Positions 8,188-54,183 of a stretch of DNA of 64,000 nt are shown here, in pieces. The notes beneath the pieces are model-generated. The model made no database searches. It had not been told where the DNA came from and worked only from the letters and a program-made list of their open reading frames with translations. Source of the DNA: Flavobacteriales bacterium (GTDB taxonomy: Bacteria > Bacteroidota > Bacteroidia > Flavobacteriales > JANQLC01). The DNA lies in assembly GCA_028280815.1 (NCBI GenBank), contig JANQLC010000022.1, positions 1 to 64,000 of the forward strand, written 5' to 3'. The position numbers and the translations under genes were made by a program. Position 1 is the first letter of the stretch. Each line of letters begins with the position of its first letter.

Positions 8188-9278
8188 CAAAGGGCTCGGC
8201 ACAGGCATTTCTCGATTTCGTATGTATCCCGCTCTCTTTCCTTTGATTCCACGTGCGGGGAGACCCTCTGTTTGACAGTCTAAAACGAGTTTTGTCTTTT
8301 TGTGTTTGTGCTTGTGTTGGGCTGCGCCGACCTTTGTCGGTTGGTGTTTGCCCTTTTAATCTGGTTTGAAATCCAGGCGCTCATTCTTTGCCCTGTGGTC
8401 AGCTATGCCGACTCTCATCACAGATATTACAGAATTTGCCTCCATGGGTGAATCCAAAAGCTGGTTTCGTCGTTTCTGTTCGCGCTTGTCAGGATAAAAA
8501 GGTCTATTCTCATCCTTATCCTACATGAGGCATTTTAACTCGCCACATCATTTTTTAGCATTCGTCTCTATGAGAAGGGTTTAAAAAGCGAGGCTTTTTT
8601 CCGTGTGGGGACTAAGCGTGGACTTATCTCTTTGTGTTTGCTACTCTTGTATGGGCCAAAGGCGCTTTTTTGTCTTTATCCCCCATGGGGCATCTGAGCC
8701 TCCAGCTCTATTTTTTCCCTTTTGCATCGGTCTAGGGAGGAGACTCGTTTTTGGTTTCCATTTGGCAGTTTGAGAAGTGCGTATCATCCTTTTGTATTCG
8801 TCTGTGCGTGGGGGCTTAAGAAAGCGGTCCCATTTTTTGGCCTCTGGTTGACGGCTTAAAAGGCGTACCTCATTCCCTATATTCCTATGCTGTGCTCCAG
8901 CTGCAAAAGCGGCATGAGATCGTTGCGATCAAATCAATACAGCGCTGCCCTCGGAGCCTTTGAGAAAGGGCTATATTTTTTTGTTTTTACCCCTGTGATA
9001 GGGCTTCTGTACATCCTGTATCTCTGTTATCGGCTTTGCCGTTGGGAAAATAAATTATGCGGCATGAAGCGATAAACCCGGCCCTGAGTTATCTGCAACC
9101 AAAAGCGAAACAACCCAAGTAGAATCACAATGAATGAAACCCGCAAACAAATGAACTCACAACCCAAGGCGACCAAAACTGCTCAGTTAGCTACAGACTA
9201 GACCACACCCAAGGTCCAAGGTTACGGCATTTGAGAGAAACGTATGACTTATCTGCTTTGCACACATACGTCTTGCTT
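8188..9278 (+). repeat. Intergenic island of degenerate ~45-nt repeats (T-rich on plus strand)
   Basis: No gene in about 1.1 kb. From about 8280 to 8990 the plus strand is a head-to-tail series of related units of about 40-46 nt: a T-run, a pyrimidine block, a GTGGGG-like block, then TTAAAAAGCG or TTGAGAAAGGG. Clear copies start near 8578 (GGTTTAAAAAGCGAGGC), 8660, 8710, 8766, 8816 (TTAAGAAAGCGG), 8853 (GGCTTAAAAGGCG) and 8958 (CTTTGAGAAAGGGC). Frames are interrupted by stops, so I do not treat the ORF at 8887 as coding. 9076-9278 holds no repeat that I see. Confidence 0.6.
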
Positions 9279-11859
9279 CTATCTGCTGGAGCCAACGTAA
9301 CTGGCCCTCCGGCCAGGGTGCCAATACTCTTGACAACTTATCTCTTTACCATTTTCCATCGTGACGGTACAACTTAATCTTTTAATATTAAACATGCCGC
9401 CCATTTTATAGTAAAACTGATCCATGTCTTTTCGTTTTATTTGACCTTGATAAAGCTTTAAAAATTTAAGATTTTTGGACTTTGTTCTGTCTTCAACAAA
9501 TTCAAATTCAATTTGCGAAGGTGACTTACATCTCAAATCCAAATATCCAAGTGTTTCAACTCTGCCGAAATGAATTTTTTTAATAGAATTCACATTGCTA
9601 TCGTGAAAATCTAATCCCCTTATTTTAGTACCTGACATGGCGAATAAATCTAAATCACCGTCATTAGGTAATTTTAACTTCACCAATGAATTGCAATTAT
9701 AAACTTGTATGTTTTTCAAACCTTTATTTGATCATAGTGGCAGCTCAGTGAGGCTATTGTCATTCTTGATAAGCAAGTTTTCTAATTTTTGGTTACGACT
9801 TAAATTTATTTCACCAAAAACACCGTTATATATTAAAAAACTTCTCAACCCACTAAATAATTCAATCCCCTGAAAAGATTTTATATCTTTCAAAAGGTTT
9901 AGATCAGGAGTTTTGCCTACTTGATCAGAATTGCTAATATTTACAATACCTCTGACATAATCAAGATTGATGTCATCCCCAACAAATGACCCAGGAAGTT
10001 TCTCTCTCAAGTAATACGCAAATCCCTTAGAAAAAGTAGTTGCACATTTACCACCGCTACAATAGCCAACGCCTTCTTTGTCGAATTTATAATCGGAACA
10101 GATCAGATTATCTTTACCAGAGGCTCTATTGTAATCATTGTCAAACACCTGTACTTTAGTATCGGGCGAATTTTTCTTTACTTATTTGATCTCTGTATAG
10201 TCTTTTAAAAATTCTCGTATCTTTAGGGTTTTCAATTCCCCGCTTTGTTTATTTCTATTACAGTCCATGTCTGCCTTGCATTCACTCCAGAAGATATCAA
10301 ACAGACGTCTTTTTTCGGCTGTATCCTCGAATGCGTTCCGAAATCCAGTTGCATCTAAATAAGCCATATCATTGCGATAATACTCTAAGTGTGTCATATA
10401 TGTGTTTTTACTCAAGTCTAAGCTATGTATTTGGTTGTCATGACATATCAATGTATTCAAAATGCTTTCTTCTGAGAGATTCAGTTTACTTATTTTATTA
10501 TCGGAGCGCCTCAATTCCAACAATTTATGGTTATTTCTTAGGTTCAAACTTCCCAATTCGTTTTGGGAACAGTTTAATTCTTTCAGTACGGTGAAATACT
10601 CAATCCCTTTTAAAGACTTTATACTCTTTCCTTCCACATCAATCGATTTGGTCTTTCTCACTTCTAAGGCATAGAAATTCATTTTTCCATCCTCTCGAAA
10701 AACATTTTTACCCTTGAAAAGCCGTTTTAAATAAGTCGTGAAATGGGAATCTTCAAATTCCACATAGAAGCCTTCAGCAGATTCGTGGGCACTACGTTCA
10801 GCTTTTATAGCAGCGTTTCCTATTTCTTCAGCAATAGTTTCGACACTTCTATCAGAAGAGGATTTGGCCTGTCTGGCAGCCTTTATAGCTAACTGGGCTT
10901 CAAAGATGGCAAAATAGGCGGCGGCTGTAGCTTTGGAATCAGCATTGCTGGCTGTTGCTTCCAAATCCTCATCTTCCCCGCTACCTTCATTGGTAAGTGT
11001 AGAGGGCTTTTTTCCAAATACTTTGGCTTTGGCTTCTTCGAGCGCTTTTTTCGCAACGGCTTCATAGGCTTGCGCAACTGTTAGCCAGGATTCGGCCGCA
11101 ATCAGGTACCATTTACTATTGCGATCGCTTAGCACAGGCAGCTTGGCGAGCAATGTTTGGAAATAAGGTCGACTAGTCCCTTTTAGAAGAGAAGACCCTT
11201 CTTCAGCCTATGCCGCCGCATACTTGATGGGAGATGGTATTTGGGAAGCCAGTTCTATAGATTTTGTGGCATTTTCAACAGTTTTAGTAGCTTTTTTGGC
11301 GGATGCTACAGATTTGGAGAGCGATGTTTTGGGATTCTTGGCTTGCTCAGCGAGTTTCTCGACTTGTGCCTCAGCTTTTTCGGCTTTTTTAATCAAGTCT
11401 TAGAAGGACCGTGTAGTAAATTTAAAAGCGAGACCTGCAACCGGGTGCTCGGGTTGTGCGATTGTGCTCTCAACGATCAGCTTATACGCCCTATCGGGCT
11501 CCAAAGGCTCAGCCAAACTGCCCTTGACGCCCAGTGGGTCGCTGGAGTTTATAGGCTGCTCTTCACCCAAAAAGTGTGGCGCTTTACCGCTGACCTCATC
11601 CTCTAAAATCGCCTCTTCAAGGTCTATACGCTCATCGGGCGGCCATCTCGGTAAAGCGCAATGAGAGTACGGGTTGTAAACCGATACCGGTATGGGTAGC
11701 ATTATCACCAGCAATAAACTGCTCACCATCCATTTGTACGTCAAGCGCCTTCAGCGCAATTTTGGACGTGATGACTTGATTTTCATCTTTGGCACAAGAT
11801 GACAAAAGGCATGCAAACAGCAGGCAATAGCTCAGTAATTCCTCTTTGCGTATTTTCAC
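9279..11859 (-). pseudogene. Leucine-rich-repeat lipoprotein gene, four in-frame stops and one frameshift
   Basis: Remnant of one gene of about 860 codons. It begins with a lipoprotein signal (LLFACLLSSC, lipobox Cys). It shifts frame near 11640 and then stays in one frame to the end, interrupted only by TAA at 11400, TAG at 11208, TAA at 10182 and TGA at 9732. After the signal come an Ala/Lys-rich helical stretch (KKAEKAEAQVEKLAEQAKN) and a second helical region, then leucine-rich repeats of the Bacteroidota type (LKELNCSQNELGSLNLR, ILNTLICHDNQIHSLDLS) that continue across the last two stops. The LRR half is AT-richer than its surroundings. Such surface lipoproteins often mediate protein binding; the target is unknown. 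The ORF-track pieces are fragments of this one gene. Confidence 0.8.
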
Positions 11860-12252
11860 AACGAGATCAGTCTTATCAATCCCTTTGCACGCGCCACATC
11901 AATACTTTGAGCCATTCCAAATCTTAGAATATCTGGGAGTAAGTGGTGACAATTGACTGGCTTTTTCTCTTTCTCCTACGCACTCATACAAGGGGAAAAT
12001 TCTTATATCATTCATGTGAAATACGGGCGTAAGGTACTAAATTGTTCTATAAAGGCTCTGAAAAAATATCAGCTCGGTTTACAAAGCCCGGCAATGCACA
12101 ACCCTTTGCCAATCTGTGTGCTAAAGAAGAGGCGTTTTTTACTGCTGTTCTCCTATGGCAAAGGTGAAGCCTTATCCATTTGCCCTTATCTCCATTTGGC
12201 ATGGGCGCGATCCAGCCGCCTCTCGCCGAGTACACGTATAGGCAAACTGAGG
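11860..12252. other. Intergenic region with a trace of the degenerate repeat
   Basis: No supported gene. Around 12120-12220 the plus strand reads CTAAAGAAGAGGCGTTTTTT and then pyrimidine-rich blocks with CTATGGC and TTGGCATGGG, resembling two units of the intergenic repeat family. The ORF at 11953 runs through it and overlaps the 3' end of the regulator gene antisense. Confidence 0.4.
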
Positions 12253-26580: not shown

Positions 26581-26919
26581 CTCCTTCTCGGTGTCGACTT
26601 GCCAGATGGGATTTGCCTTCGTATCTCGGTAGCGGTTTGGAAAAGGGTCTTTTTTCGGTGTGGTATAGGCAGCGGGCAGGGTCTATTTTCTTCTTCTGTC
26701 GGTCGATCGTGAAAGTCGAAACCGTTTTTTGGCTCGCCCTGGGCAGCCTGAAAAGCGGTTCTTTTTCTTTGTACTACTTAAAAGGTTCAAGGCCTCGTTC
26801 CCACACTTTTCCCACTATAGATCACCCCATGCAGCAAGTCGTCTCGTCAAGATAAAAATCTTTGACCTATGTGCTCAGTAGTTCTATATGGTTTGTACAG
26901 GACGTTCAGGGCTATTGTG
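26581..26919 (+). repeat. Intergenic island of degenerate repeats (T-rich on plus strand)
   Basis: No gene. Between about 26630 and 26800 there are four units of the intergenic repeat family: GGTTTGGAAAAGGGTC followed by TTTTTTCGGTGTGG; TATTTTCTTCTTCTGTCGG; TTTTTTGGCTCGCCCTGGG followed by GCCTGAAAAGCGG; TTTTTCTTTGTAC followed by CTTAAAAGG. The ORF at 26613 runs through them and reads as LK/EKGxFF-type repeats, but I do not call it coding. Confidence 0.6.
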
Positions 26920-34389: not shown

Positions 34390-34923
34390 ATGGATGACGT
34401 GCTTTCAAACCCCATGGAATTTTTAACGGGGATAGCCGTAGGCTTTTTACTGGGTTTCACCCTGTATTGGGTTACGCGTAGCAAAAAGGGTGAAGCCCAG
34501 CCGGTCACCCTGGCGAATAACCCCGAAAAAGAACGGTGGTTTACCCTGCAATTGCAGGCCTACGAGCGGGTGATCTTATTCTTAGAGCGCATCACACCCC
34601 AACACCTCGTAAACCGCGAAAAGCCCCGAGCCAAAGGCGTGAAAGCCTACTACCTCCAACTGGTTCAGTCCATACAAAGCGAATACGAACACAACCTGAC
34701 CCAACAATTGTACCTACCCGAGAAATCCTGGGAGCGCGTGGAAATCGTCAAAAATCAAATCGCAAACACCCTTTCCCAAACCCAGCAAAAAAACGAAGAT
34801 ATACAACGCTTTCGGGAAGCGATCATCACCGATAGTCTGGCGCAAAACCCGCCGGTAAAAGCCTTGATCAAGGACTTGAAGCTCGAGCTCAAAAAAAGCG
34901 TATTGCCCCACCTACGGGACTGA
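34390..34923 (+). CDS. Membrane-anchored protein of a conserved Bacteroidota family
   Basis: A 177-residue protein with one N-terminal transmembrane helix (FLTGIAVGFLLGFTLYWV) and a helical cytoplasmic part containing LQAYERVILFLERITPQHLV, a motif I recognise from uncharacterised Bacteroidota proteins (a DUF7935-like family, from memory). The remainder has a predicted helical bundle and a Lys-rich end (KDLKLELKKSV). No catalytic motif is visible. The start could be ATG 34390 or ATG 34414 given the promoter position. Function unknown. Confidence 0.7.
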   Translation: MDDVLSNPMEFLTGIAVGFLLGFTLYWVTRSKKGEAQPVTLANNPEKERWFTLQLQAYERVILFLERITPQHLVNREKPRAKGVKAYYLQLVQSIQSEYEHNLTQQLYLPEKSWERVEIVKNQIANTLSQTQQKNEDIQRFREAIITDSLAQNPPVKALIKDLKLELKKSVLPHLRD

Positions 34924-35929
34924 GGCACCTGAACCAAGGCATCGGTACAAACACCAAAAAAATAAGCCCTCACTTCCACGTGACAAAAGGACGGGATCAA
35001 AGGTATAGAGTTGGGGGCATCAGATTGTCCCACGGTGTAAAAACGAGGAAACAAATACTGCTCTTTAAACCCTTACAGCGGGGTAAACACAAAAGAGCTG
35101 TTTTTAAACCCATGCAAAGAGGGTTTTTACAGCTCATCGCTTAGTAAAAGTCAGCGAGACTGGCCACAGGACAAAAAAATAAGGCTCGGCTTTCAAATCG
35201 ACACACGGGAAAAAAACAAAAATACCCCTTTTCAGATCGCCAAATAAAGACGAAGAGATGGAGTTGGATTTTTTTAACCGCCCTGCGCGGAGAAATGGGA
35301 AAAATAAGTCTGGGCGCATCGACGCCGCATGCGAAACAAAGACGAGAAAAGCCCTTTTTTAAGGGCAATATGAAAGGGCAAGCGCCAAAAAACACCCTTC
35401 ACCTCTCAAAATCATCATAAGAGGTCAAGAGCAAAGGATAAGCCCCTTTTCAAATCGATTCGATACGCCTGTGGCCATCACCCGGGATACCGCAAAAGTA
35501 TTCCGACTGAGACGAATACACGACAGAGCTGCTACAGCCTCAGACAAAGCCAAAGGGATGCGTCTCCCTTTCCGAATCACCGAGCAAGAGCGAGAGATAA
35601 AAAAATGAGCGCAAACCCTCAAATCGACCCAAATGAACGAGAAAAACAGCCGACCGAAAACAAAGGCGTGTTTCACCTCTTTAAAGCCTGCTTTTAATCG
35701 ACCACCTGGACAAATGCCAAAAAAATGACGTCCCTTCTCGAGCCGAGACAAGCGGGAAAAAACAAGCTCTTTCCAGTCCACCCACAGGGCAGAAACAAAA
35801 ATAAATTCCCATTTCACAACTGCGTACGGCATTCCAAAACGAGCGCATGTTCCCGGTTTTCCAAATCGATTCACCGATCCCACAGCTATCCCACGCAGGG
35901 ATGCGCGCCGAAAAGCAGCTCGCTTTTCA
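34924..35929 (-). repeat. Intergenic island of degenerate ~45-nt repeats (T-rich on minus strand)
   Basis: About 1 kb without a gene, occupied by at least ten units of the intergenic repeat. On the minus strand the units read like CGATTTGAAAAGGGGCTTAT (near 35440), CGATCTGAAAAGGGGTATTT (near 35240), CGATTTGAAAGCCGAGCC then TTATTTTTTTGTCCTGTGG (near 35180), CTCGAGAAGGGACG then TTTTTTTGGCATTTG (near 35730), and TGAAATGGGAATTTATTTTT then CTGCCCTGTGGG (near 35810). ORFs here encode LK/EKGxFF-type repeats but are broken by stops in every frame. This is the densest copy of the element in the window. Confidence 0.65.
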
Positions 35930-35937
35930 TATCTTTG
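35930..35937 (+). promoter_or_regulatory. Putative -7 element (TATCTTTG) of recG
   Basis: TATCTTTGTG ends 6 nt before the recG ATG, so the mRNA would be almost leaderless. It supports the start at 35944. Confidence 0.45.
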
Positions 35938-35943
35938 TGTGAC

Positions 35944-38049
35944 ATGGCGTCGGATATTTTAAGCACCCCCATCGAATACCTAAAAGGCGTAGGCCCCAAG
36001 CGCGCTGAGCTCTTACAGCAGGAACTCGACATTTACACCTTTAGCGATTTGCTCTACTTCTTTCCCTATAAGTATCGCGATCGATCTCGAATTTACGCCG
36101 TTGCCGAGTTGTCGGATGCCCAAACGGAGGTACAGCTGTCGGTCCGATTTTCGGGCTGGGAAGAGATCGGCCAACGCAGCAAGAGGCGTTTGGTTGTTCG
36201 CGCTTTTGACCGCAGTGGGGCTGTAACCCTGGTCTGGTTTAAAGGCATCCGGTGGGTCGAGTCCCAACTCCAGCTGAACACCCCTTATATCGTCTTTGGC
36301 AAGCCCTCGGCATTCCAGGGAAAAATCAACCTCATACACCCCGAAATACAGCCCCTGGCCACCTATGAAAAAGAGAAATTCGGCAGCTTTCAGCCGCTTT
36401 ACAGCAGCACGGAAAAGCTGGTCGAGGCACAGCTGACCAACCGCGTCTTCAACGCGATGGTAAAAAATCTGATCCCAAGCGTCCAACCCTGCATTCGCGA
36501 GAGTCTATCCCCCGATTTGCGGAGAGAATTCTCGCTGTTGGACAAGGGGGAAGCCTTGCGGGAAATCCACTTTCCCACCGCTTTGGCGACGTTGGAGCGG
36601 GCCCGATTTCGCCTCAAATTTGAAGAGCTCTTCTACATCCAGCTCAGCCTGCTCTACAACCAGAACTACACCCACCAAAAATCTGTGGGATTCCGCTTTC
36701 CCGAGATCGGAGAGCGCTTCCATAGGTTTTACAAAGACCGGTTGAGTTTTGAACTGACCCATGCACAAAAACACGTGTTAAAGGAGATCCGTCGCGATGT
36801 CAACACCGGTCATCAGATGAACCGGCTCTTACAAGGCGATGTGGGCAGCGGAAAGACCGTCGTGGCATTTATGAGTATTCTAATGGCTTTGGACAACGGT
36901 TTTCAAGCTGCGCTGATGGCACCGACAGAAATTTTGGCCCAACAGCATTTTCAATCCCTGAAAACCCATGCCCAGGGGCTCGACATCTCGGTTGGATTGC
37001 TCACCAGCGCCACCCAAAAAAAGCGGAGAGACGAAATCCTGAGCGCTTTACAAAGCGGGGAGTTAAAACTGATCACCGGTACGCATGCCCTGATTCAGGA
37101 AGCCGTACAATTTAAAAATTTAGGCCTGGCCATCGTCGATGAGCAGCACAAATTTGGCGTAGGGCAACGCGCTGAGCTCTGGAAAAAAAACAATCCCACC
37201 CCCCATATATTGGTCATGACGGCCACACCCATACCCCGCACCTTAGCCATGAGCCTATACGGCGATTTGGACGTCTCGGTTATCGACGAGCTGCCACCGG
37301 GGCGAAAGCCGATAGAAACCCACCACCAACGCGATGGCAACCGCTTGAAGGTATTCGCTTTCCTCAAAAGACAAATCGACCTCGGACGTCAGGTTTACGT
37401 CGTCTATCCGCTCATCGAAGAATCCAAAAATTTCGATTTGAAAGACCTGATGGACGGTTGTGAAAGCCTGAGCCGTTATTTCCCCCCACCGACCTATCAG
37501 TTGAGCATCGTACACGGACAGATGAAAGCACAGGACAAGGCATACGAAATGCAGCGCTTTGTCAAAGGTGAAACCCAGATCATGGTGGCGACGACGGTGA
37601 TTGAAGTCGGCGTAGACGTACCCAACGCCTCGGTTATGGTCATTGAAAGCGCCGAGCGCTTTGGACTTTCACAGCTGCACCAACTCCGCGGACGCGTTGG
37701 GCGGGGTAGCGACAAATCGCACTGCATACTGATGACCCGCGATGACTTGGGCGCGGATTCCCGGGCGCGCATACAAACCCTGTTGCGGACGCAAAACGGT
37801 TTTGAGATCGCCGAGGCCGACTTAAAATTCCGGGGGCCCGGGGATTTGATGGGCAAACAACAGAGCGGCGTATTGCAAACCAAAATTGCCAATATCGCAC
37901 GAGATGGGGATATCATGTACCGAGCACGGGTGGCGGCACGGCGCATACTGCGCGAAGACGGGGGATTAGACGCAGCCAAAAACCGCGTGATCAAGCGCGT
38001 TTTTCAGCAGTTGCAAAGAGAAAATGTAAAGTGGAACCAAATCAGTTGA
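35944..38049 (+). CDS. recG: ATP-dependent DNA helicase RecG
   Basis: Branch-migration helicase (701 residues) that remodels stalled forks and D-loops. The N-terminal wedge region starts MASDILSTPIEYLKGVGPKR, with the HhH-like GVGPKRAELL. Walker A is LLQGDVGSGKTVVAF, motif II is VDEQHKFGVGQR (DEQH, a variant of DEEH), motif III MTATPIPRTLAMSLYGDLD, and motif VI QLHQLRGRVGRG. The C-terminal TRG region (ADLKFRGPGDLMGKQQSG) is present. The ORF track extends 73 codons upstream through the repeat island; the promoter position and homology favour 35944. Confidence 0.96.
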   Translation: MASDILSTPIEYLKGVGPKRAELLQQELDIYTFSDLLYFFPYKYRDRSRIYAVAELSDAQTEVQLSVRFSGWEEIGQRSKRRLVVRAFDRSGAVTLVWFKGIRWVESQLQLNTPYIVFGKPSAFQGKINLIHPEIQPLATYEKEKFGSFQPLYSSTEKLVEAQLTNRVFNAMVKNLIPSVQPCIRESLSPDLRREFSLLDKGEALREIHFPTALATLERARFRLKFEELFYIQLSLLYNQNYTHQKSVGFRFPEIGERFHRFYKDRLSFELTHAQKHVLKEIRRDVNTGHQMNRLLQGDVGSGKTVVAFMSILMALDNGFQAALMAPTEILAQQHFQSLKTHAQGLDISVGLLTSATQKKRRDEILSALQSGELKLITGTHALIQEAVQFKNLGLAIVDEQHKFGVGQRAELWKKNNPTPHILVMTATPIPRTLAMSLYGDLDVSVIDELPPGRKPIETHHQRDGNRLKVFAFLKRQIDLGRQVYVVYPLIEESKNFDLKDLMDGCESLSRYFPPPTYQLSIVHGQMKAQDKAYEMQRFVKGETQIMVATTVIEVGVDVPNASVMVIESAERFGLSQLHQLRGRVGRGSDKSHCILMTRDDLGADSRARIQTLLRTQNGFEIAEADLKFRGPGDLMGKQQSGVLQTKIANIARDGDIMYRARVAARRILREDGGLDAAKNRVIKRVFQQLQRENVKWNQIS

Positions 38050-40548: not shown

Positions 40549-41127
40549 TGACTTCAGCATTTTTAATCCACGTAAAAGTCAAAGTCAAAAAACAAACCAA
40601 ACAAATGACGAGCACCCAAAAAACATTCCTTTTCAACCCTTCAAATGACTTCAGCATTTTTAATCCACGTAAAAGTCAAAGTCAAAAAACAAATCAAACA
40701 AATGACGAGCATCTAAAAGTACCCCCCTTTTCAAACCTTTAGTTGAGAACAAAGAGCAAGGTCAATTCTACGAATTTACCGCAACGGACGGAATGACAAT
40801 ACTCAGAGACCCATGCACAGCCGACAACCTCGCTAAGAATCGAATGACGAGCACCCAAAAAACGCTCCTTTTCAACCCTTCAATTGAGAACAAAGAGCAA
40901 GGTCAATTCTGCGAGTTTATCGCAACGGACGGAATGACAATACTCAGAGACCCATGCACAGCCGACAACCTTGCTAAGAATCGAATGACGAGCACCCAAA
41001 AAACGCTCCTTTTCAACCCTTCAATTGAGAACAAAGAGGCAAGGTCAATTCTGCGAGTTTATTGCAACGGACGGAATGACAATACTCAGAGATCCATGCA
41101 CAGCCGACAGCCTTGTTAAAAACCAGC
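40548..41127 (+). repeat. Nested direct tandem repeats (57-nt and ~141-nt units)
   Basis: Layout read directly: unit X (57 nt, ATGACTTCAGCATTTTTAAT...) at 40548 and 40645; unit Y (about 40 nt, ATGACGAGCACCCAAAAAAC...) at 40605, 40702, 40844 and 40985; unit Z (about 101 nt, beginning TTGAGAACAAAGAGCAAGG) after the last three Y copies. X+Y repeats with a 97-nt period, Y+Z with 142 and 141 nt. Copies are nearly identical, so expansion is recent. Because 141 is 47 codons, one frame stays open as a repeated peptide (ORF 40793-41119), but a one-base change in the last copy breaks it. Part of Y resembles the degenerate intergenic repeat. Confidence 0.9.
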
Positions 41128-41456
41128 GGAGCCGACTACAGGGCAAAATCAAAGGACGAGGCCCTTTTCAGATACGTCCGATTGGATAGTCCCTGGGATT
41201 GCTCCCCTGTAAGGGTTACACAGCACGGAAACAGAAAACGACATCTCCTCTCAGGCTGTCCCACAGGGATAGACGCAAAAGAAGAAACCGCACTTCCAAT
41301 CTCTTTCCGTATCGAGAGCTGTAGCGCTTTATTTGATACCAGACCGAAGAGGTGTGAATAGGGAAGACAAATCCAGCTAAACCACTTGTGGCAAGTGTGT
41401 AGGGATCAAAACCCTGAGAGGCGCAATGCGGGATAGAAGGATCAAGCGGTTCACAA
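41128..41456 (-). repeat. Degenerate repeat units downstream of the tandem tract
   Basis: No gene. On the minus strand, units of the intergenic family are visible: ATCTGAAAAGGGCCTCGTCC then TTTGATTTTGCCCTGTAG (41130-41180), and TTTTGCGTCTATCCCTGTGG then ACAGCCTGAGAGGAG (about 41245-41290). Confidence 0.5.
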
Positions 41457-53354: not shown

Positions 53355-54183
53355 CATACATACCCCCTATACATAAGTCCGATCGCCCATTTGAGCCTGA
53401 TATGGGAATTTCGGCTCCTATTCTTATTCGTATGATAATCAGTGCGTTTATAAACACAGCCCATGCAACGGTAAGCCAAAACATAAGGGTTTCCCATCTA
53501 ACGCATGGAATGTTGCATCCATATTGACTTGATACCATTTACCTGCAGCCGACCACCGCGTGGCTCTTTCCACCTCATCCGCAGTTTTGCGTTCAATTTG
53601 TTAGGTTCCATTTTAAATTTATCGTTTCATACTTTGCTTTTTTTATCATTGCGGCCTACTCAAGCGCCAAGTAACTGGAGCAACACATTAGAGAGTCGAC
53701 TGCCAAATATTTGTGTGCGTTTGAAAGTTGGAGTTGTTTGCCGCTTTTGCGCAGCAGTTGAGAGAAGCGTGTTTTGCGCTGCTGCATGGATCGGGTTGGC
53801 TGGGTTGATGTGTCGTTGTGTTATTGAGCGAGTTGTCTTGCACCGTTGCATAGGTGAATTGCTGGGTTGATTGCGCTGGTGGGCTACTTTGCACTGGTTA
53901 GCTCGTTTTTTGGTTTTGTCCTTTTGTGTGCGTTTGAAGGCCTAGGCCCTGTTTTCTCGCTGCTGTTTGGCCGTTAAAAAAGGCTTGTTTTGCTGTGCGA
54001 CTCATCCTTCTATTAATCTGTGTGGGATTCCGGTCGGGCGCCCGATGAGGCAGCGTTAATTTGGGCCTGCTTTAGGTATAAACCCGATGAGACAAGGGCG
54101 GAGAGAAATTGCTAACAATAGCACAATCCGGGTCTCGGTCTAAAGGATTTTCACGGTGAATTTTTTCCGAGCCCTATAGTTTG
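53355..54183 (+). repeat. Long intergenic region with degenerate repeats (T-rich on plus strand)
   Basis: About 830 nt without a supported gene. Repeat-family units are visible near 53717 (GCGTTTGAAAGTTGGAG), 53930 (GCGTTTGAAGGCC then CCCTGTTTTCTCGC) and 53972 (CCGTTAAAAAAGGCTTG then TTTTGCTGTGCGACTC). The stretch 53740-53900 is G/T-rich with short repeats such as CTGGGTTGAT. The ORF at 53505 runs through this and is rejected. Confidence 0.5.

Follow-up and report, generated by a model that had tools for sequence, protein, structure and literature searches.

A diverged, strand-polar tandem repeat family in the intergenic DNA of a Flavobacteriales genome

The intergenic DNA of this Flavobacteriales bacterium harbors a real and lineage-specific family of degenerate tandem repeats, whose 95 arrays of at least three units (773 units) span 70 kb, that is, 4.4% of the genome. 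As its best reading we propose a lineage-specific, satellite-like intergenic repeat under weak constraint, an interpretation that we consider about evenly balanced between right and wrong. The assembly amounts to 1.59 Mb in 42 contigs, with a GC content of 49.8% and a completeness of 92%, and the window, by which we mean the whole stretch of 64,000 nucleotides analyzed here, corresponds to bases 1–64000 of a 68 kb contig.

The repeat family at the locus and across the genome

The main array of the window (34924–35943, minus strand) lies between a DUF7935 gene (34390–34923, plus strand) and recG (about 35944–38049, plus strand), both identified with Pfam, and extends up to the RecG start near 35944; the overlap with an open reading frame listed from 35725 is due solely to a start codon lying upstream. 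The preliminary description of this DNA had claimed ten or more minus-strand units at 34.9–35.9 kb and had named beforehand, as the decisive comparison, a profile scan against shuffled sequence. With a position weight matrix (PWM) built from 611 units, all of them outside the window's contig, we found 13 minus-strand units (core starts at 35820, 35778, 35744, 35625, 35578, 35456, 35412, 35366, 35279, 35238, 35199, 35110, and 35071) and none on the plus strand, when 200 dinucleotide shuffles of the locus gave a mean of 0.69 units and a maximum of 4, which bears out the claim.

Across the intergenic DNA of the whole genome, the PWM detected 885 units versus 43 in the reversed control, and the examination of position, strand, and spacing that had been envisaged reveals the preference for convergent gaps and the one-strand polarity detailed below. 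A core-seeded nhmmer profile likewise returned 683 genomic matches of at least 8 bits, 651 of them intergenic, versus 13 in the reversed genome, and the key word of the preliminary description, GATTTGAAAAGGGGCTT, occurs 14 times with at most two mismatches in the genome and never when it is reversed. Units taken at random are identical at only about 46% of positions, so that the family escapes ordinary repeat finders; exact consensus strings joining several blocks have zero to four occurrences in the genome, which makes exact-pattern scans of public collections pointless. A circular profile HMM with free jumps converged but proved too permissive (63 kb decoded in the reversed control vs. 111 kb), and its use was therefore restricted to column composition and covariation. 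The view that the repeat never lies inside an intact gene holds for arrays, and has to be qualified for isolated matches: those of at least 12 bits are found in 48 predicted genes, nearly all of them single, that is, at chance level, and two matches in one gene are seen only in a single low-scoring ORF.

The preliminary description had also counted five or more other stretches in the window, in both orientations. Both orientations are indeed present; as for the number, four further arrays are clear in the PWM scan and the rest that were possibly counted are single weak matches. On the plus strand, these comprise a second array of eight units at 8263–9010 (units at 8277–8957) and two short arrays of three units each, at 26620–26790 (26634, 26705, and 26745, the one at 26705 being weak) and at 53705–54015 (53718, 53931, and 53972). 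On the minus strand, six units (41257, 41174, 41019, 40878, 40737, and 40639) form the array at 40600–41275, within which Tandem Repeats Finder delineates 3.0 copies, at 93% match, of a 141-nt unit-bearing block (40701–41119; self-match offset of 142). This triplication is a recent duplication within the array. Elsewhere in the window, the stretches 11160–12250 and 9279–10148 show poor coding quality and broken ORFs and may be pseudogenes.

Unit plan, placement, and turnover of the arrays

The units follow the plan GRTTTGAAAAGnGGGnTTRTTTTTTTG[nnTTTG]TCCCTGTGGGTC, in which the bracketed 6-nt block is optional: a purine core after TTT (TTTGAAAAG) is followed by a G-rich patch, a T-run ending in G, the optional block, and an CCCTGTGGG-like block. 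The short form, of about 40 nt, has the consensus GGTTTGAAAAGnGGGnTTTTTTTTTTGTCCCTGTGTGTC, and the long form, of about 46 nt, carries the additional nnTTTG between the T-run and TCC. A unit of 40–45 nt had been proposed, of which the repeat stands but the single length does not, as the spacing is bimodal, with modes near 40 and 46 nt (SDs of 2.6 and 1.6) that are preferred over one mode by a BIC difference of 72. The two spacing classes have 218 members each and succeed each other in random order along the arrays. Spacings are evenly spread modulo 3 (220/229/225), codon periodicity is absent, and no gene carries an array, which leaves the earlier reading of the unit as a peptide repeat unsupported. 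Polarity is nearly complete, with 716 of 722 units lying on the majority strand of their own gap in the 76 gaps with at least four units. The preliminary description had also looked to folding, which yielded no consensus structure: in the core unit there are neither consensus pairs nor covariation, the fold z is near 0, and the energies equal those of shuffles. At the starts and ends of the arrays, a search for a shared motif gave only weak 7-mer enrichment, and no promoter-like motif is enriched upstream of them.

The stretches between recognized units contain further recurring modules, which share the strand of the units. One is a hairpin, GTCAGC-NNN-GCTGAC followed by TTTT, found in 43 copies on the repeat strand of the arrays versus 6 on the opposite strand, whose layout, with the hairpin directly before a T-run, is that of an intrinsic terminator. 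In the window, it takes the form of GCCAGTCTCGCTGAC then TTTT in place of the TTTGAAAAG core in the main array (35150–35164, minus strand), of GTCAGCTATGCCGAC in the second array (8398–8412, plus strand), and of GTCGGCTCCGCTGGT in the array at 40600–41275 (41122–41136, minus strand). Since the pairing and covariation of its copies, which were picked by a stem-containing pattern, do not exceed those of shuffles of their own columns, the module may be conserved only by descent. Further recurring blocks of the same strand are GTTGCAAAATCCCAATC...GATCAAATCGGG and CATCTGAGnCTCCAnCTCTATTTTT, and a third module type of the second array, CCAGCTGCAAAA...GATCAAATC (8880–8969, plus strand), recurs in other arrays of the genome.

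To place the arrays relative to genes, we called genes across the whole genome with a simple hexamer-based ORF caller, which gave a coding share of 74%, approximate as the caller is crude, and 646 gaps of at least 50 nt totaling 416 kb. With this caller, about one quarter of the 1.59 Mb genome appears intergenic, with many gaps above 1 kb, which is unusual for a small bacterial genome. Unit density reaches 3.7 per kb in convergent gaps, 2.0 in codirectional gaps, and 0.95 in divergent gaps; arrays in codirectional gaps are oriented with the genes in 15 cases and against them in 21. Array polarity is linked neither to GC skew at third codon positions (53/94, P = 0.26) nor to the local gene strand (52 against 43), and a replication-strand account of polarity was rejected on this lack of bias. 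Five contigs above 15 kb, one of them of 61 kb, are without any array.

The family had been described as old and repeatedly expanded. Its age is upheld, and so is the sharing of blocks within and between arrays, but expansion unit by unit is not: over 42 columns, neighboring units have an identity of 0.459, versus 0.455 between arrays, and are thus no closer than strangers, which, together with the random order of spacings, means that simple unit-by-unit tandem duplication is not visible. At a larger scale, 21.6% of array DNA has a counterpart in another array, with at least 70% identity over a minimum of 80 nt. These matches, of which 205 lie wholly within the array span, number 209 in the same polarity and 0 in the opposite one, and the pieces common to different arrays measure 80–455 nt; within arrays, self-matches occur at offsets of about 95–166 nt, the blocks reaching up to a few units. 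From these alignments we infer that blocks were probably copied from one array to another through homologous recombination or gene conversion, and likewise the direction of that copying in time.

Signs of selection were assessed on recent copies (75–97% identical), each position being scored leave-one-out against a trinucleotide-matched expectation. Together with a transition/transversion split, this test replaces an earlier one that had indicated stronger core conservation and was biased by unit selection. Changes occur at background rate in the T-run (148 observed, 131 expected) and in the CCCTGTG block (173 observed, 181 expected), above background in the G-rich patch (214 observed, 164 expected), and are mildly reduced in the TT.AAA core (81 observed, 107 expected), where transitions are at expectation (ratio 1.06) and transversions are depleted (0.67, and 0.58 at inner positions). 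The divergence between random units is what more than one substitution per site would produce outside the core. With 0.144 indel events per substitution in recent copies, a neutral spacing SD of about 5–6 nt is predicted, against the 2.6 and 1.6 observed, an estimate that assumes star-like descent and Jukes–Cantor distances, for which saturation matters, and that rests on an indel rate which alignment gaps may inflate. Tight spacing and depleted core transversions point to some selection on the plan; these sequence patterns suggest weak long-term selection on plan, spacing, and purine/pyrimidine core, and over the short times represented by recent copies single units appear close to neutral. 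Defective mismatch repair was rejected as an account of the transition-rich divergence on the basis of an intact MutS, the gene examined.

Relatives and known elements

In searches of 297 other genomes from the order and some 395 from the class, samples that overlap in part and bring the total to about 690 genomes, a dimer model that scores up to 61 bits in the genome itself attains at most 24.4 bits, which is chance level; this search scored only 11–14 first-look candidates per genome under strict filters, so that rare or more diverged versions could be missed. The scan of relatives that the preliminary description had in view thus gave chance-level scores only. The closest RecG among 85,462 genomes shares 57% identity, the nearest relatives being Flavobacteriales and other Bacteroidota, and with none of them above that value an orthologous gap for comparison is lacking. 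Phage and plasmid records hold no match to the repeat, and an origin from either was rejected on this ground. Over the window, Rfam gives no hit at the gathering threshold, the best match (E = 0.76, in the main array) scoring far below its cut-off, and a known structured RNA was accordingly rejected. Taken together, the negative results in Rfam, in phage and plasmid records, and in the sampled genomes agree with the earlier statement that no named element has this layout.

Among bacterial elements, REP/BIME sequences come to mind, with hundreds of intergenic copies of 35–45 nt, often between convergent genes; REP units are palindromic, are associated with RAYT transposases, and occur in alternating orientation within BIMEs. 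The family likewise has hundreds of intergenic copies that favor convergent gaps, but its units are nonpalindromic and all on one strand. A REP/BIME identity was rejected as the unit has no palindrome, consensus pairs, or covariation and no RAYT is found, and so was mobilization by a RAYT, since the Y1 transposase domain PF01797 has no match in this 92% complete genome when control genomes are positive. MIRU-type and other bacterial minisatellites are, like the present arrays, intergenic direct tandem repeats, of about 50 nt, and MIRU copies are nearly identical, when the units here share about 46% of positions; this low identity led to their rejection, the 141-nt triplication at 40701–41119 being the exception. 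An intrinsic terminator was rejected for the core unit, which shows no pairing; the minor hairpin module alone has such a layout. The regular spacing of direct repeats recalls CRISPR, which was rejected given that the repeats are not identical and lack unique spacers. Intergenic TAACTGA direct repeats of Beggiatoaceae, Cyanobacteria, and some Bacteroidetes, made of exact 7-nt units and, in Beggiatoaceae, located mostly just upstream of start codons (PMC4679880), are comparable as lineage-restricted direct repeats over many bacterial intergenic regions. Such TAACTGA/STRR heptamers were rejected because the present units are degenerate, measure 40 or 46 nt, and avoid divergent promoter gaps, where their density is lowest.

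The genome does possess a genuine type I-E CRISPR array, separate from the repeat family, at C20:16113–18335 (L043), with 36 exact copies of the repeat GTCTTCCCCACGCATGTGGGGGTGTTTC and adjoining cas3, cse1, cse2-like, and cas5-type genes. Three of its 35 spacers match the genome itself exactly over 33 nt, at C2:22153–22185 (L013), C15:23282–23314 (L075), and C17:20192–20224 (L055); one of these sites falls within rpoB, another in a TerB-C gene that is next to a BrxC/D gene, and the third is intergenic. The apparent self-targeting of rpoB is unexpected.

Competing readings and other intergenic elements

Like eukaryotic satellite DNA, the arrays are tandem, head-to-tail, noncoding, and strand-polar, with block duplication and exchange between arrays. 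They differ in being scattered across some 95 gaps in a bacterial genome of small size, in having two equally frequent spacings, and in the lack of homogenization within arrays, where concerted evolution, as expected of a satellite, is not seen. Because of this last result, we file the family as satellite-like by behavior and not as a standard satellite. On the satellite-like reading, each array would be a one-way string of fixed-plan units with less common hairpin-bearing modules interspersed; arrays would change mainly by block copying, both internally and, with polarity retained, between arrays, by a route such as ectopic homologous recombination or gene conversion; and they would persist where insertion harms little, in long convergent gaps and not in promoter-bearing divergent ones. 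A strong host function would then seem to be absent. Weighing against this reading are adjacent units no more alike than strangers, unlike those of simple satellites, a spacing tighter than the neutral prediction, and the depletion of core transversions when transitions are not depleted. These same features could indicate arrays of functional sites, to which a protein (nucleoid organizer, insulator, or partition factor) would bind at many weak, redundant positions with two spacings, selection keeping core and spacing as the remainder drifts. This is a possibility to which we give roughly half the credence of the satellite-like reading: the units resemble independent draws from one profile and not recent duplicates, and divergent promoter-bearing gaps are avoided, but constraint on the core is weak among recent copies, helical phase is not maintained by spacings of 40 and 46 nt, the five large contigs are arrayless, and no candidate protein was identified. 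Somewhat less probable still would be a strand-polar functional lattice of weak sites spaced by 40 and 46 nt, selected on purine/pyrimidine pattern and spacing over exact sequence and propagated by being copied from array to array, which, if true, would represent a previously undescribed class of bacterial chromosome element.

Strand purity and the one-sided distribution of the hairpin module would also fit long noncoding RNAs, each array being an independent transcription unit whose U-rich repeats and hairpins bind an RNA-binding protein or end transcription. We regard this as improbable: covariation is absent from the core and does not surpass shuffles in the hairpin, fold energies equal those of shuffles, no upstream promoter-like motif is enriched, and Rfam is negative. 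A decayed gene family for proteins with repeats of 13–15 residues is yet more improbable and largely refuted, even if the units, averaging about 39 and 45 nt in length, would fit 13 and 15 codons and the T-rich strand has a few less stops than its shuffles (2921 against 3191), for spacings are uniform modulo 3, the longest open runs are about equal to those of shuffles (93 vs. 89 codons), no intact gene has an array on either strand, and no source gene was found. As for T-rich low-complexity intergenic DNA mistaken by chance for a repeat, the T-run and G-rich patch are indeed of low complexity, and the genome has other islands that are GT-rich, but the excess over the reversed genome, the cross-validated count at the locus (13 vs. 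0.7), the sharp spacing modes, and the high strand purity refute it and leave it scarcely any credence. Returning to the satellite-like reading, bacteria are thought to purge noncoding repeats, and about 4% of a small genome is here a diverged tandem family that would turn over by block copying, which makes the family an occasion to ask how bacteria accommodate satellite-like DNA and whether selection can act on a plan when it does not act on the sequence.

Two other kinds of intergenic DNA accompany the arrays. A dispersed element of about 335 nt (L018:110–447 on C12, minus strand), with matches on C17, C37, C16, C15, C26, and other contigs, has copies or fragments 75–98% identical on many contigs, often at contig ends and for some in array-bearing gaps; with its inverted ends CCGAAAAACGAAATCAG / CTGATTTCGTTTTTG, it looks like a MITE. 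A second kind of intergenic island consists of long, GT-rich, degenerate low-complexity DNA, TTGGATTGGGTTG-like, in which the 12-mer TGGATTGGGTTG is found 34 times. These islands lie at L021:5345–7972 (C14), L065/L066 (C37:98845–102425), and L047:2150–4535 (C24), and those on C14 and C37 are on the same strand as the units of the repeat family.
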